Shown in pieces: positions 2,678 through 8,095 of a stretch of DNA of 64,000 nucleotides. A program made the translations under genes and the position numbers. The DNA lies in NCBI RefSeq assembly GCF_020640915.1, contig NZ_JADWDC010000006.1, positions 1 through 64,000 on the forward strand. Reading direction: 5' to 3'. The number at the start of each line of letters is the position of its first letter. The stretch's first letter is position 1. Source of the stretch: Waterburya agarophytonicola KI4 (lineage in GTDB: Bacteria; Cyanobacteriota; Cyanobacteriia; Cyanobacteriales; Xenococcaceae). Below the pieces are notes generated by a model that worked only from the letters and a program-made list of their open reading frames with translations, was not told the DNA's origin and ran no database searches.

Positions 2678-4786
2678 CTATATATTAGCAAATTGTTGAT
2701 ATAAATCTTCAATTTTGTTGGTTTCTTTTGCCACATTTTCTTCTAGCTTTTGCAATCTTGCTATTTCTGCTCCTTGGTTAATTTCGACCCTTTGTTTTTG
2801 TTCGACTAAGTTATCTAATTCTGCTTTGCGCGAGGTAATATCTTCGTTCATGCGATCGCTGATTTCTCGTTCGTAAGCTGTAAAGCATTCTGTAATTGCT
2901 TCTGCTACTTTGGGTGATTGTTCTTGAGCTACTTTGGGCAAGTATTTAACTAGCTCTTTACGGGCTGCTTTTACCAACTCTTTGCGAGCCTGATCGGCTT
3001 GAAATACCCCTATGCCCAAACCTAATAAAGCAAAGCCAATCGGCCCTAATACGACTCCTGTAATGGCAGTAATGATAGTACCGACACCGTATACGGTAAT
3101 AAAATTGAGCATGATATTTTTCCAATCAAATCCTGCTCCAGCCATTGCTACACCAGCTAAATTCCCCCTGGCTAAAGAGAAGATACCTGCTGCCCATTTT
3201 GCCCAACTAGGAGAATTATCTTCTGGGTTGACTTTTCCCACACGGGGTATTTTTTGCCCTGTAAGTTTTTCGGTAATTTTGTTGGTAACTTCGGTGTAAT
3301 TTACGCCATAGCTAGTCGCGATCGAAGATAGTTGAGCGAATGCTGATTCCATATCTTTTTCTGCACCGCGACTCCATTCGGCTAGCTTGTCATTAACATA
3401 GCGTTCAAAGGCATTAGTTAGTTCTCTTTCAAATGTTTCTCTTTTACCTGAAGATAGGAAGTCTAAAAAGTTTAAACTGGGTTGGTAGCGAATAAAGTCT
3501 GTCTCAAAAGTATTACCTAAATCAATTATAAAATTAGCAAAAGATTGGGCGATCGCTGTAGATTTTTCATCGCCTATTTTTCTGATTTCTTGTTTGAAGT
3601 CTTCACAAATTTCATTTAATAATTGAAACTCTGGGGCAACAGAAGCAATCTTTTCTTTTAATTCATTTATATCTGATTCTAATAAGGGAATTCTTCGATT
3701 GACTGCTTCTTTAACGTGGGTATAAGTTTGTTTAGTTAATATTCTAGTTTGGCGTAATTCCGCGATCGCTCTTTCTTGGGTTAAAAATTTATTTAGCGAA
3801 CCTAAAAAATTAGGAAAACCCGTACCCGATAAATCTGCATTGGTATCTTTAATTCTTTTTCGTAATGCCATCAAAGAGCAAAGGGTAAATACTCTTTCTT
3901 CGTATAGATCTTCTTCATCTCGATAACAATATTCTGCTAAATTTGCTTTAAATACTCGTTTCAGCTTAAATTCGGCTTCTTCTAATTCTTCTGGATCGTC
4001 AGGATCGATTAAACTTTCTTTAACTTGATCCCAAGCATTGATCAAGAAAAAGACTGTTAAACCTCGATCTTTAAGATAGTTTTCTAAATATCTACGTTCT
4101 CCTAAAGTACAAGGTTGAGTTGCTCTTAAAACAAATAAAATTGCATGACAGTTATTAATATATCCCAAAGATAATTCATTGCGGGCTTCTGTATCATTCA
4201 ACCCAGGGCTATCGACAATTTCTACTCCTTTTTCTAACAAAGCTAAAGGATATTCAACGATCGCATGACTTACCGTCGGAAAAGCTAATTTCTTTTCTTG
4301 TTCTAAACGTTTGGCTTCGGCGGGATCGATAGTATAGCGATGTTTAAATATTTTAAAGTCTACTTCTTCTGGTTCGGTTTTATCATTAAAATAAACTGTA
4401 ACCTTCTTATGTTCTCCATAACGCAATACCGTTAAAATCGCAGTACAAGGATTAACATCACTGGGTAATATATTCTCTCCAATTAGAGCATTAAGAAACG
4501 TACTTTTGCCCCGCTTCATATCACCTAATACTAACAAGCGAAACACACCTTCTCGTAAGTTAGTACCTGCTTTTTTCAGATCGTCGATATCTCTTTCTAA
4601 CTCTAATTTTCCTGATTTGGTTTGATTTATTTTTTCGGCATCTTCAATAGAGTGGGCAATTACTGCCATTGAATTAGCGATATCAATTCTAGCGCGGGCA
4701 ACTTTACTAAGATCATTCAGGAAGCTTTGAGTTTCGATTTTCATTTTGAAATTGTTGTTGAGAGAGATATTTGTTATTTCTTTCAT
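2678..4786 (-). CDS. Bacterial dynamin-like GTPase (BDLP)
   Basis: A 702-residue large GTPase, close to the length of the characterised Nostoc dynamin-like protein. GTPase motifs are in order: P-loop GDMKRGKST at 88-96, switch Thr115, DSPG at 192-195 and NAWD at 250-253. Helical, coiled-coil-prone sequence flanks the GTPase domain. A hydrophobic segment rich in Gly, Ile and Val at about 565-605 resembles the membrane-inserting paddle of BDLP. It probably binds and remodels membranes; the precise cellular role is unknown. It reads alone, with no second dynamin-like gene beside it. The ATG at 4786 is used; another Met at codon 15 is possible. A minus-strand terminator and a pheT fragment lie just upstream of the start. 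Confidence 0.9.
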   Translation of the reverse strand: MKEITNISLNNNFKMKIETQSFLNDLSKVARARIDIANSMAVIAHSIEDAEKINQTKSGKLELERDIDDLKKAGTNLREGVFRLLVLGDMKRGKSTFLNALIGENILPSDVNPCTAILTVLRYGEHKKVTVYFNDKTEPEEVDFKIFKHRYTIDPAEAKRLEQEKKLAFPTVSHAIVEYPLALLEKGVEIVDSPGLNDTEARNELSLGYINNCHAILFVLRATQPCTLGERRYLENYLKDRGLTVFFLINAWDQVKESLIDPDDPEELEEAEFKLKRVFKANLAEYCYRDEEDLYEERVFTLCSLMALRKRIKDTNADLSGTGFPNFLGSLNKFLTQERAIAELRQTRILTKQTYTHVKEAVNRRIPLLESDINELKEKIASVAPEFQLLNEICEDFKQEIRKIGDEKSTAIAQSFANFIIDLGNTFETDFIRYQPSLNFLDFLSSGKRETFERELTNAFERYVNDKLAEWSRGAEKDMESAFAQLSSIATSYGVNYTEVTNKITEKLTGQKIPRVGKVNPEDNSPSWAKWAAGIFSLARGNLAGVAMAGAGFDWKNIMLNFITVYGVGTIITAITGVVLGPIGFALLGLGIGVFQADQARKELVKAARKELVKYLPKVAQEQSPKVAEAITECFTAYEREISDRMNEDITSRKAELDNLVEQKQRVEINQGAEIARLQKLEENVAKETNKIEDLYQQFANI

Positions 4787-4823: not shown

Positions 4824-4853
4824 AAAAAAAGCCTAACCGAAGTTCAGTTAAGC
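4824..4853 (-). terminator. Intrinsic terminator upstream of the dynamin-like gene
   Basis: Read on the minus strand, 4853-4831 folds as GCTTAACT / GGTTAGGC arms (with G-T wobbles) around a short loop and is followed by seven T residues (4830-4824). The pairing is perfect only on the minus strand. It points toward the dynamin-like gene start at 4786, so it either stops transcripts arriving from the pheT side or is the original pheT terminator left behind with the pheT fragment next to it. Confidence 0.65.
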
Positions 4854-4862
4854 GTTGTATTA

Positions 4863-4954
4863 TAGTCACATCAAACTTCTTGATGTAAGGGATCGAGATC
4901 CTTATTGGTTAAAGTGCGATCGCCTACTTGATAAAATAAAGACGATCTCTGATC
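4863..4954 (-). pseudogene. Degraded copy of the 3' end of pheT
   Basis: The minus strand reads YQVGDRTLTNKDLDPLHQEV before a stop at 4871-4873, against [20 protein letters not shown] near the C-terminus of PheT. At DNA level 4863-4935 aligns with 5671-5766 inside pheT. By hand count there are 12 mismatches in 73 aligned bases and one 23-bp deletion. In pheT the missing 23 bp lie between two near-identical 10-mers (AACTTCTTGA and AACTTTTTGA), as expected for slippage. The deletion shifts the frame. The homology fades upstream of about 4954. It is too short to encode anything on its own and is a displaced or duplicated gene end. Confidence 0.85.
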
Positions 4955-5019
4955 TCTAATATGTAAGATTAGCTAGTTTTTATTTAGGAATATAAAGATT
5001 AGGAAAAAGTCTAAACAAT

Positions 5020-5535
5020 ATGCTTTATGGAATGGAATTATCTTTTGCAAAAGAAGAAATTATTCGTAAATATTTTCCAACTCTCAAAAGATATGGAGTC
5101 TATTTTGACCAGGAAATTTGCGATTTAATTGAGAACTGTAGTAATAATTTAGAAAGTAGAATTCAAGCTTTTATTGGATGGTTTCTTAGTCTAGAATATC
5201 GTGCTTCGATGGAAAATAAAAAACTAATTCTTCCAGATGCCAACGAAACTTTTATACAAGCTCTAGAAAAAGGATGGTATCCTACTGCTTTTCAAAAAGA
5301 AAGGTTAATGGAAGCTGGGTTGTTTCCTTTTGATATTGCGATGAGAGATAAATTAGCAGAGATTAATTTCTTTAGAACGATCTCCGTCGATATTCCCAGA
5401 AACTCAAACAGAATTAAGTTCTTTTATCGTGGTGAAATTATTTGGGAAGAACAGATATCAGATCTTCTAAAAGTTTCCAACCGAGGATTAATTGAAATGT
5501 ACAAGTTTAAGGTTTATCGATTTAACGATAATTAA
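5020..5535 (+). CDS. Hypothetical protein, orphan between the two pheT ends
   Basis: I do not recognise this 171-residue protein. It is soluble by appearance, with no signal peptide or membrane segment, and is rich in Lys, Glu, Ile, Phe and Tyr. The first two thirds look alpha-helical and the last third (from about 125) beta-rich. The coding sequence is strongly AT-rich and contains no HIP1 octamer, unlike most neighbours. It stands alone on the plus strand, facing pheT, and is bracketed by the intact pheT end and the pheT fragment at 4863-4954, which makes acquired cargo a reasonable reading. The ATG at 5020 is chosen; a second ATG at codon 5 is equally possible. Confidence 0.65.
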   Translation: MLYGMELSFAKEEIIRKYFPTLKRYGVYFDQEICDLIENCSNNLESRIQAFIGWFLSLEYRASMENKKLILPDANETFIQALEKGWYPTAFQKERLMEAGLFPFDIAMRDKLAEINFFRTISVDIPRNSNRIKFFYRGEIIWEEQISDLLKVSNRGLIEMYKFKVYRFNDN

Positions 5536-5586
5536 AAACATTATTTATTTATTTCAAAAATTTTACATGTAACTTGTTATTACTCT

Positions 5587-5624
5587 AAAAATTTTATACA
5601 AGAGAGGAATAAACCCCTCTTGTA
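5587..5624 (-). terminator. Intrinsic terminator of pheT
   Basis: On the minus strand an 11-bp stem (TACAAGAGGGG at 5624-5614 with CCTCTCTTGTA at 5607-5597, one mismatch) with a 6-base loop is followed by the A/T run TAAAATTTTT. It lies 36 bp past the pheT stop codon. It could also act weakly on transcripts of the plus-strand gene ending at 5535. Confidence 0.7.
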
Positions 5625-5659
5625 AAGGCTAATAGTCAATAGCTAGAAGCTTTAAAAAA

Positions 5660-8095
5660 TTAACTTCTTAAAGTCACATAAAACTTCTTGACTAAAGTAT
5701 CGCGAACTTTTTGATGAACGGGATCGACATCTTTGTCAGTTAAAGTGCGATCGCTTGCCTGATAAACTAAATTGAAAGCTAAACTCCGTTGCCCTTCAGG
5801 AACGTTTTTGCCTTTGTATTCATCAAACACTTCGACTTTTTGGAGTAACTTACCACCTGTTTTATTCATTACCTTTTCAATAGCAGTAACTGATATATCT
5901 AAAGGTGCAAAGAAAGCCAAGTCTCTAGCCGAACCTGGATAGGTAGAATAGGTTTTAAACTTAGGAGTGGTGATGGAATCTCGATTTAAGACAGTGAGTA
6001 ACAAGCTGAAATCTAATTCAAAAAGATATACTTCGTTAGGTAAATCTCTCTCTTGGGCTAATTGGGGATGAATTTGCCCGAATAAACCCAAATTTCTGCC
6101 TTGCAGCCACAGTGCAGCAGTACGCCCTGGGTGAAGTCTATCTTGAATGTTTTCTGGGCGATATTCGACGCTGATACCTAGATTGCTAAAAATATTTTCT
6201 AATACTCCTTTAGCATCGTACCAACTCATGGGCGTACCCTTGCCACCATTAACCCACAAGCCTTCGGAGGTAATATTTCCCCCCATAATTCCTGCAAGGG
6301 AATCTTTTTCTTTTAATTCTTCCCCTTCCTGCCAAAATACCCGTTCGATTTCAAACGCATTTAACGCGCCGTTACCCTGTGCCAAATTATAAGCAAAGGA
6401 ATCTAACAAACCAGAAAACAGTTCGCCTCGCAATGCCGAATATTCGGCAAACAAAGGATTATCGAGAGTTACCTCAATACCTGTAGGTTTTACTAGAGAA
6501 TACTGCACTACTTCTGTTAAACCCACCCCTCTTAATACAGCACGGAGTTTATTCTTGATCGCATATTCCGGAGACAATTGCCCAGATTCGGTTTTAGCAG
6601 GGAGAGTATCGCAAAAGCGATCGTAACCATAAAGACGAGCAACTTCTTCTATGAGGTCAATTTCTCGCTCTAAGTCGCGATAGCGGTAAGGAGGGACTTT
6701 AACCAACCAAGTGTTATCCTTTCCTGCTACTAGCTCTAAATTACAACCTAAAGCACCTAAAATTGATTCCACATCTCCCGCTTCAATGTAACCGATACCG
6801 TTTGCTTTATTTACCGCACCCAAAAGATGATTAATTCTACTCAAACGCAACTCGATCGCGGGTAAACTAGAGAAATCTATACGACTATCGGCAATAGATT
6901 GAGCTTTGGGAGTACCACCAGCAAGTTTTTGTAATAATGCGATCGCTCTTTTGCCAGCAGATTCTAATTCTACTTGGTTTACTCCCCGTTCGTAACGAGT
7001 AGAAGCTTCGCTACGCATACCTTGAGCGCGGGATGAGCGACGTATTGCTACAGGATCGAACAAGGCTGCTTCTAAAACAATATTGTTAGTATTATCGTCA
7101 ACTTCCGTCTCTTCGCCTCCCATAACTCCCCCTAATGCCACGGGTTTATCGTTAGCGGTAATCAATAAGTTCTGGGTGGTTAATTCTCTTTCCTGTTCGT
7201 CGAGAGTCTTTAACTTCTCTCCCTCTTTAGCAAAGCGAACCCCTAAAGTTAAATTGTTATTTCCTGCAACCTCTTGAAGTTTCTCGCGATCAAAAGCGTG
7301 TAGTGGTTGTCCCCATTCGAGCAAAACATAATTAGTAATATCTACCACATTATTAATCGGGCGAGTACCTGCTGCTTCCAGTCGCCACTTTAACCAGTCG
7401 GGAGAAGGTTCAACTTTTACTCCCTCAATTACCGTACCGATATATGCCATACAAGCATCGGTTTCCTTAACGTCTACATTTAAAGAACTATCTGCCGCAA
7501 TATCCTGTGACTTAACTTCGGGTAATCTCACCTTTGCGCCAGTTAAAGCTGCAACTTCCCGCGCAATACCCACCATGCTTAAAGCATCGGCGCGGTTAGC
7601 AGTAGTAGCCAAATCTAGAATTACATCATCTAAACCCAAAAGAGGGCGCACGTCATCCCCAGGCTTGATATTATTTTCCTCGAAGATATGTATCCCGTCA
7701 GAATCTTTTTCCAAACCCAACTCCGTCAAAGAACAAATCATCCCCGCCGAAGGTTCGCCCCGCAGTTTGGTAGGCTTGAGTTTCAAATCTATTGCTGGTA
7801 AATATGTCCCCACCGTAGCTACAGGAACAAAAATATCCGCCCGCACGTTAGACGCACCACAAACTATATTTAAAGGTTCGTTTGCACCGATATCAACTTT
7901 ACACACACTTAGCTTATCAGCATTAGGATGTTGCGATCGCTCTACTACTTTTCCTACTACTACCCCATCTGCATTTTTCCGCAGATCGATTAATTCTTCT
8001 AGTTCAAATCCTGCAATAGTCAGCACTCTCCCCAATTCTTCGGGAGACATATGTATATCGACAAATTCTTTTAGCCAGTTTAGAGAGACGCGCAT
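5660..8095 (-). CDS. pheT: Phenylalanine--tRNA ligase beta subunit
   Basis: PheT pairs with PheS to charge tRNA-Phe in the cytoplasm. At 811 residues it is full length for bacterial PheT. The N-terminal motif [13 protein letters not shown], the tRNA-binding OB domain (about 40-150, including [17 protein letters not shown]), the B3/B4 domain (about 210-400), the B5 domain (about 415-490, entering the [20 protein letters not shown] stretch) and the C-terminal ferredoxin-fold anticodon-binding domain (about 715-811) are all present. The ATG at 8095 fits the family start. pheS is not adjacent, as is common in cyanobacteria. Its last roughly 100 bp recur in damaged form at 4863-4954. A hairpin terminator follows at 5587-5624. 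Confidence 0.97.

Follow-up and report, generated by a model that had tools for sequence, protein, structure and literature searches.

A displaced pheT 3' end in Waterburya agarophytonicola KI4 as a candidate scar of one-sided recombination at a gene end

The stretch of Waterburya agarophytonicola KI4 DNA analysed here (64,000 nucleotides, the window; genome G000) carries an intact pheT and, beyond a small gene, a second, damaged pheT 3' end with a terminator of its own. From sequence comparison we think it probable that such layouts were produced by homologous recombination on one side, within a gene end, combined with illegitimate joining at the far side, frequently at the octamer HIP1. Incoming DNA from a diverged relative would have brought a pheT 3' end of its own, followed by a small gene. 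On one side it would have paired by homology with the resident pheT, which would thereby gain the 3' end, terminator and cargo of the relative. On the other side, where homology was lacking, illegitimate joining would have taken place immediately upstream of the resident pheT end. That end and its terminator would then be stranded on the far side, later to decay. We infer both the donor and the route of entry (natural transformation or another uptake), and HIP1 may have taken part either as a microhomology patch of 8-11 nt or as a break site. In these cyanobacteria a relative's version, arriving with a small gene that is often of toxin-antitoxin type, appears to have replaced the end of pheT, an essential gene, on several occasions.

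The two pheT ends of the window

The intact pheT, encoding the beta subunit of phenylalanine-tRNA ligase, occupies 5660..8095 on the minus strand (ORF of 811 aa; TIGR00472, 796.8 bits). The displaced end lies at 4860..4940, also on the minus strand, and 720 nt separate its near edge (4940) from the real pheT stop (5660). The first-pass annotation had counted 12 mismatches in 73 bases and one 23-bp deletion; the deletion stands, and the gapped alignment gives 13 mismatches in 81 aligned nt. A repeat search returned two pheT-end pieces, 67 nt at 82% (offset 831) and 24 nt at 92% (offset 808), whose offsets differ by 23, the size of the slippage deletion. The displaced end was also recovered by blastn against the downstream stretch (E = 6.5e-15), by an nhmmer profile of the pheT end over 17 downstream stretches (E = 3.5e-13) and by a whole-genome search (E = 2.3e-11). 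It is not a chance similarity, and the repeat search, blastn, nhmmer and gapped alignment all bear out the annotation's claim of a damaged second pheT 3' end beyond a small gene. The HIP1 octamer GCGATCGC lies within the real pheT 3' end at 5747..5754 (read in the sequence and compared with relatives), the position where the extra pheT ends of several relatives start. Another HIP1 octamer lies in the displaced end at 4916..4923 (read in the sequence and in the alignment), where pheT similarity extends 17 nt upstream of HIP1, up to 4940.

The two ends carry different terminators. Attached to the displaced end is a type A terminator (4824..4853, minus strand), which the annotation had taken for the old pheT terminator. 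This is supported by the recurrence of the pattern behind pheT elsewhere: in 2.05 Mb searched on both strands, together with two further pheT stretches, its sole other match was behind the real pheT of G008, and a type A-like terminator was read from the sequence behind pheT of G011. Behind the real pheT end is a terminator-like inverted repeat of type B (5598..5623, minus strand; sequence reading and pattern search), and its strict pattern had no match elsewhere in the stretches surveyed. On the far side lies a dynamin-like gene (2678..4786, minus strand; PF21808 and PF00350), with a relative at E <= 1e-80 in 5 of 26 genomes, its own included.

As the annotation described, a single AT-rich gene without HIP1 lies between the ends. 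It encodes 171 aa (5020..5535, plus strand, convergent with pheT) and is the only ORF of at least 60 aa there; its GC content is 31% vs 38% for the window, and HIP1 does not occur in 4941-5659. Its description as an orphan has to be given up: it belongs to an unnamed cyanobacterial protein family with a match at E <= 0.001 in 19 of the 60 genomes (counting the window's own), and has one record in the plasmid collection, from Chondrocystis sp. NIES-4102. Searches of Pfam, PADLOC and PDB (single sequence or 13-member alignment) and of NCBIfam and PHROGs (single sequence) gave no usable match. We rejected the gene as a toxin-antitoxin module, since it is single and matches no toxin or antitoxin family.

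Extra gene ends and their cargo in relatives

The pheT-end profile found extra pheT ends in 7 of 27 genomes of the family, representing at least five histories, and one weak example outside it. Five of the seven genomes have the extra end on pheT's own contig, one of these five being weak. The exceptions are G003 and G006, where it lies on another contig, which counts against replacement of the pheT end. The weak copy, that of G007, spans 32 nt and scores 18.5 bits, which is genome-wide noise level, and it was absent from a further search; its inclusion in the count rests on its position 745 nt behind pheT (E = 4.4e-5, downstream-stretch profile) and on its running, by eye, past a gap to a stop codon. 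A decayed pheT end suspected by eye before purH in G012 fell below the profile thresholds and was left out of the count.

The cargo beside these ends is small and varied: the 171-aa gene in the window's genome, PIN_2 in G002, a HepT-like gene with a nucleotidyltransferase gene in G003, VapB-like and PemK in G006, DUF2281 (below cut-off) and PemK in G007, and a gene of 73-75 aa in G013 and G020. Many of these cargo genes are of toxin-antitoxin type, and such genes are hard to lose, which is probably why the cargo has been retained. The pairing of pheT fragment and 171-aa gene is not constant, and both of the patterns that the annotation had named as refuting its reading were found. In G012 the 171-aa gene lies behind pheT with no pheT fragment detected; it is likewise behind pheT in G005 (two overlapping contigs). 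Fragments with other cargo follow pheT in G002, G007, G013 and G020, and others are found on the separate contigs of G003 and G006.

The extra ends of G003, G006, G007 and G068 start at model positions 25-27, the HIP1 octamer. That of G002 starts there by eye and with the downstream-stretch profile, its genome-wide match starting at position 14. The smallest insert is about 0.4 kb. At the far joint similarity is lost abruptly and there is no long homology. Counted outward from a point 2 nt before the HIP1 joint, G003 and G006 are 93.4% alike over 502 nt; the 600 nt that precede the joint show no likeness, and neither do the stretches downstream of their real pheT genes.

Similar scars occur at other genes: uvrB (cargo DUF433 and DUF5615), a methyltransferase-like gene (DUF433 and PIN_10) and a prolyl aminopeptidase gene. 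A GntR-like gene has a mirrored scar, at its 5' part, with HicB-like cargo. The uvrB cargo has a relative in 7 of 13 genomes and adjoins uvrB only in G007; in the others gene and cargo relative are on different contigs of broken assemblies, so that the two may yet lie near each other.

Origin of the displaced end

When G002, G003 and G006 are pooled, 31 of the 40 differences between real and extra end fall at third codon positions (p = 1.3e-8 vs 1/3 and 3.4e-4 vs 1/2; not different from the 82% found between species), G003 and G006 entering this test with extra ends of shared ancestry. The bias argues that in these three genomes both ends diverged as working gene ends, as expected of a diverged orthologous copy at the homologous joint. 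Gene relationships point the same way. PheT of the window's genome is nearest that of G001 (89.9%; G009 84.9%), which has behind its pheT a similar terminator and a remnant of the 171-aa gene; the carB-like gene, 25 kb away, is nearest G009 (94%; others <= 93% at lower score), as is the dynamin-like gene (93%). This pheT is not cleanly split: its 3' quarter groups with G009 and the rest with G001, whereas a short replaced 3' end should give the reverse pattern. PheT of G006 is nearest G002 (94.5%; G003 91.3%) and its trpA-like gene nearest G003 (96%; G002 92%); a G003+G006 grouping was rejected by pheT (AU p = 0.013), with clades chosen after the trees had been seen. The first yardstick, a 998-aa gene, encodes a CyRepA1-family plasmid replication protein and its tree may therefore not equal the species tree; the carB-like and trpA-like genes agree with replacement. 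No genome closely matching the window's real pheT end and cargo was found as donor.

The annotation had read the layout as the scar of a small element integrating at a gene 3' end, with plain tandem duplication as the main alternative. What survives of this is the displaced end as an apparent former pheT end, stranded with its terminator beyond incoming DNA; the element itself we consider unlikely. Such an element, carrying a copy of the pheT 3' end and with its recombinase lost or supplied in trans, would have rebuilt pheT and displaced the old end. The rebuilt gene end with the old one on the far side, the recurrence at pheT and the start of the extra ends at HIP1 all fit, and for plasmid recombination in Synechococcus PCC 7002 the reported site is a HIP1-like core (cited in PMC4390886). 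Against it, no recombinase gene turned up when the ORFs of the small inserts were read (a set without the IS-bearing insert of G003 and the incomplete one of G006), the 171-aa gene had no PHROGs match, and by eye the roughly 25 nt on the cargo side of the joints held no sequence shared across loci that might serve as common att arms, G003 and G006 being unlike over 600 nt. The joints vary between genes from 0 to ~29 nt upstream of HIP1, and the occurrence of like scars at uvrB and further unrelated genes, in one case mirrored at a 5' part, also speaks against it.

Slightly less probable still is a rearrangement in which fragment, terminator and dynamin-like gene were joined behind a resident pheT and its 171-aa gene, making the displaced end the newcomer. 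The order of pheT and 171-aa gene recurs in G005 and G012 and may thus be ancient, most of the genomes read differ in the far flank, and the 3' quarter of the window's pheT groups with G009 like other genes of this genome. The odd one out is PheT as a whole, however, and the dynamin-like gene sides with G009 as the carB-like gene does; in G003 and G006 too it is PheT, not the far flank, that stands out. Very improbable, in our judgement, is duplication of the pheT end in place, after which a gene would have been captured between the two copies and the outer copy would have decayed. Copies made in this way should remain similar across the 3' flank and to the same degree at each codon position. 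True cases exist at trmFO of G013 (120 nt, 99%, joint 5 nt from HIP1) and at a 102-aa ORF of G008 (172 nt, 98%), and at a MocR-like 483-aa gene and a 119-aa DUF433 gene the copy extends ~112 and ~62 nt beyond the stop codon, as in-place duplication would give, these last two agreeing as far as the flank is concerned. At pheT the third-position bias in three relatives and the differing terminators in the window's genome argue against it, and in uvrB, in pheT of G003 and in the prolyl aminopeptidase gene the similarity goes no further than the stop codon.

HIP1 joints and comparison with known systems

A search for near direct repeats found 103, of which 63 were dropped as multi-copy or overlapping and 40 kept, giving 80 boundaries. 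HIP1 lay within 28 nt of the boundary in both copies at nine of the 80 (1.7 expected), a count to which HIP1 itself may contribute by helping short repeat matches. Without pheT the figure is 8/78, and 5/46 in a stricter set (p = 0.003). Only four of the nine are gene-end joints (pheT, uvrB, GntR-like, trmFO); at the prolyl aminopeptidase gene HIP1 is at the stop-codon end and not at the joint, and the others fall within or between other genes. Each of the five palindromic octamers ranking next in abundance scored 0/80, a weak control since each is at least five times rarer. HIP1 is absent from the joint in three of the six gene 3' ends displaced beyond cargo. Counting joints only, with a limit of 29 nt chosen after the cases had been seen, HIP1 is present in 2/5 of such ends other than pheT (p = 0.009), in 3/6 with the mirrored GntR-like case and in 4/8 with the two tandem duplications added. 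The HIP1 link thus rests on few and partly post hoc counts. We offer only tentatively the idea that in HIP1-rich cyanobacteria HIP1 is a general joint in the replacement of gene ends, a break site or microhomology available about once per kilobase at which a relative's gene end and toxin-antitoxin cargo could be captured without a mobile element. If true, HIP1 would gain a role in gene flow, and a concrete test becomes possible for this abundant cyanobacterial palindrome.

Genomic islands in gene 3' ends are recombinase-borne elements that rebuild the gene end and displace the old one. The pheT scars resemble them in the rebuilt end and the old end on the far side, and differ in that no recombinase and no shared arms were seen, that an insert can be as small as ~0.4 kb, and that similar scars occur at genes without common sequence. 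Closer is homology-facilitated illegitimate recombination, described in the naturally competent Acinetobacter, Pseudomonas stutzeri and Streptococcus pneumoniae and proposed for variable segments of E. coli (PMC2884548): as reported there, RecA-type homology acts on one side and illegitimate joining on the other, leaving a foreign segment beside the homologous stretch. What sets the present cases apart from that account is that they appear to be natural scars, that the old end has been kept, and that they recur at one gene, are joined at HIP1 and bring toxin-antitoxin cargo. HIP1-associated recombination (Akiyama 1998 and Robinson 1997, as cited in PMC4390886) concerned plasmid recombination and illegitimate recombination between cloned sequences; rearrangement joints at GCGATCGC are common to both, whereas here HIP1 sits at one joint of a gene-end replacement. 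In the merodiploids of S. pneumoniae transformation likewise leads to repeated chromosomal sequence, but those described in PMC3784515 are tandem duplications of ~100 to 900 kb between existing repeats, without foreign cargo behind a gene end. Our data would thus add natural scars of a route described mainly from laboratory transformation, and suggest how toxin-antitoxin genes might become established at the ends of essential genes with no mobile element involved. The recombination route as such is already known, and what appears to be new is that it recurs at a single gene end, with toxin-antitoxin cargo and with joints at HIP1.

Displaced pheT ends and their cargo

In W. agarophytonicola KI4 (G000), intact pheT (5660-8095, minus strand) is followed by a terminator-like repeat just beyond its end and by a 171-aa gene (5020-5535) convergent with it; next come a damaged copy of the pheT 3' end (4860-4940), a second terminator (4824-4853) and, on the far side, a dynamin-like gene. 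Aligned with the real one, the displaced end shows 13 mismatches in 81 columns and one 23-nt gap. This match is far above chance level and confirms the second end reported in the first-pass annotation. The claim that a pheT terminator is still attached to it was also borne out: a search of 2.05 Mb (both strands) and two further pheT stretches for the 4824-4853 pattern gave a sole other match, behind the real pheT of the family genome G008, and reading the sequence identified a like terminator 3' of pheT in G011. Judged by sequence, then, the terminator on the displaced end is of pheT origin. The terminator of the real G000 pheT differs from it and is similar to the one behind pheT in G001; the first 71 nt 3' of the stop are 76% alike in these two genomes.

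A profile built from 17 pheT ends located extra ends 3' of pheT in G000, G002, G007 (a weak match) and G013. A second profile, applied to 27 family genomes, added G003, G006 and G020 (7/27 in total); in G017, G024 and G026 it found no convincing real pheT end either. The G003 and G006 extra ends sit on contigs other than that of pheT (G003:C88, G006:C110). From transposase pieces and a common short flank at the G003 contig ends we infer that the former follows pheT; for G006 this is only a guess. The histories number at least five, because a single event accounts for G013 and G020, and G003 and G006 have the extra end and its far flank in common. An order-wide scan (139 genomes, stricter filters, G003 and G006 outside the set) recovered the extra ends of G000, G002, G013 and G020, missed that of G007, and gave one outside the family, in G068, 2.9 kb behind pheT (E = 4.7e-5).

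The cargo beside the extra end is the 171-aa gene in G000, a PIN_2 protein and its 74-aa partner in G002, HepT-like and nucleotidyltransferase genes in G003, VapB-like and PemK in G006, DUF2281 (below cut-off) and PemK in G007, and a 73-75 aa gene without family match in G013 and G020. Among genomes with no detected extra end, G004 has HicA and HicB-like genes between pheT and purH, G010 a ParE-type toxin gene, and G012 and G005 (the latter via two overlapping contigs) the 171-aa gene. In G001 a 171-aa gene remnant follows pheT. This relative is broken (contigs G001:C225 and G001:C326), and an 89-aa ORF region occurs in both contigs in opposite orientations, which suggests an inversion or insertion inside the gene. 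The G007 relative (G007:C1:1389880-1395209) is interrupted by an insertion of about 4.7 kb and is convergent with a helicase-like gene (by eye); 3' of it lies a 19-nt match to the genome's own pheT around HIP1, the octamer GCGATCGC (E = 0.12 genome-wide). Upstream of purH in G011 (C87:18296-20939) we recognized by eye a row of small modules: a 171-aa gene remnant, a MazEF-like pair with HIP1 on either side, a sulfotransferase-like gene that resembles one behind pheT of G006, HicBA-like genes and another remnant.

Origin of the two ends

The first-pass annotation proposed a small element integrating into the pheT 3' end, with tandem duplication as the alternative. The extra ends of G002, G003 and G006 are ungapped, and of the 40 differences from the real ends in these genomes 31 fall at the third codon position (p = 1.3e-8 against 1/3; 3.4e-4 against 1/2), although two of these three share extra-end ancestry; the ends of G000, G007, G013 and G020 were too broken to be included. 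The third-position share between species is comparable (82%). An in-place duplication whose copy has been dead since then should not show such a bias, and we read the real and extra ends as orthologues. Duplication fits better at two other genes with displaced ends, MocR-like and DUF433, because there the copies extend beyond the stop codon (by about 112 and 62 nt). The integrating-element reading is supported in part only: the displaced end and its terminator stand, and the sequences suggest gene-end replacement, a variant of a known recombination route, as the best reading of the scar.

The direction of the proposed replacement was approached by comparing pheT with other genes of the same genomes. 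The carB-like (named by eye) and dynamin-like genes of G000 are closest to G009 (94%, 2295 bits, next 2250; and 93%), but its PheT is closest to G001 (89.9%; G009, 84.9%). By parts, the 5' and middle stretches of G000 pheT group with G001 and the 3' quarter with G009 (97/94), which counts against a G001-like origin. G003 and G006 are 93.4% identical over the 502 nt that run outward from a point 2 nt ahead of the HIP1 octamer marking the extra-end start, with no likeness in 600 nt on the cargo side of this joint or between the stretches downstream of real pheT. For G006, the best match of the trpA-like gene (by eye) is in G003 (96%; G002, 92%), but that of PheT is in G002 (94.5%; G003 third, 91.3%). 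AU tests on pheT, for clades named only once trees had been seen, rejected G003+G006 (p = 0.013) and G000+G009 (p = 0.028). Both pairs are sisters in the tree of a 998-aa gene beside the extra end, a poor yardstick because its product is a plasmid replication protein of the CyRepA1 family. This is the gene that lies beside the extra ends of G003 and G006 (G006:C110:1238-4231 and relatives); most genus genomes have one close relative of it plus several distant ones. The pheT genes of G002 (C31:81195-83702) and G001 (C225:724-3231) each give a two-piece match to the query, owing to an extra in-frame stretch near residues 584-593.

Other genes and HIP1 at the joints

A search for displaced ends by protein comparison, run on 1628 genes of at least 100 aa (2.05 Mb, six genomes), gave 130 matches, 43 of which remained after removal of 87 inside another same-strand gene. 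Six of these were judged by eye to be 3' ends that lie displaced beyond cargo. They belong to pheT of G000, to uvrB (beyond DUF433 and DUF5615), a methyltransferase-like gene (beyond DUF433 and PIN_10) and the MocR-like gene of G007, to the DUF433 gene of G002, and to a prolyl aminopeptidase gene of G010, where the cargo is a lactamase-fold gene. The GntR-like gene of G007 bears what appears by eye to be a mirror-image scar, its 5' part lying beyond a HicB-like gene. Two matches reflect simple tandem duplication, in trmFO of G013 (3' end, G013:C1:187182-187421, 120 nt, 99%) and in a 102-aa ORF of G008; the rest were judged mostly paralogues, repeats or IS-like. At 7/27 genomes against about 6/1628 genes, in searches of differing sensitivity, pheT appears to be a hotspot.

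In G002, G003, G006 and G007 the extra pheT ends start at or within 2 nt of GCGATCGC, as does, judged by model position, that of G068. In G000 the similarity extends 17 nt upstream beyond HIP1, and in G013 and G020 decay is too great for the joint to be read. Elsewhere HIP1 lies 0 nt (GntR-like), 5 nt (trmFO, absent from the other end), 11 nt (uvrB) or about 29 nt (methyltransferase-like) inside the joint; the joints of the other three cargo genes and of the G008 duplication lack it. Counts of non-pheT joints with HIP1 are 2/5, 3/6 or 4/8, depending on inclusion, where 3% is expected of each, under a distance limit chosen once the cases had been seen. Among 40 two-copy near repeats, HIP1 lay within 28 nt in both copies at 9 of 80 boundaries (1.7 expected), only four of the nine being gene-end joints; for strong repeats with pheT excluded the count is 5/46 (p = 0.003). 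The link is suggestive and is not proof.

Relation to known recombination routes

On one side, homology would allow a gene end to be replaced by that of a relative; on the other, the joining would be illegitimate. In literature on HIP1 and recombination, pheT attB, and gene ends with toxin-antitoxin genes, subscription journals being mostly uncovered, none of the titles and abstracts listed told of displaced gene ends with HIP1 joints. The variant seen here seems new, with a possible HIP1 connection; one review places GCGATCGC alongside Chi sites (PMC5101192). Our data fit homology-facilitated illegitimate recombination, described in PMC2884548 for naturally competent bacteria, in which one side joins by homology and the other illegitimately.
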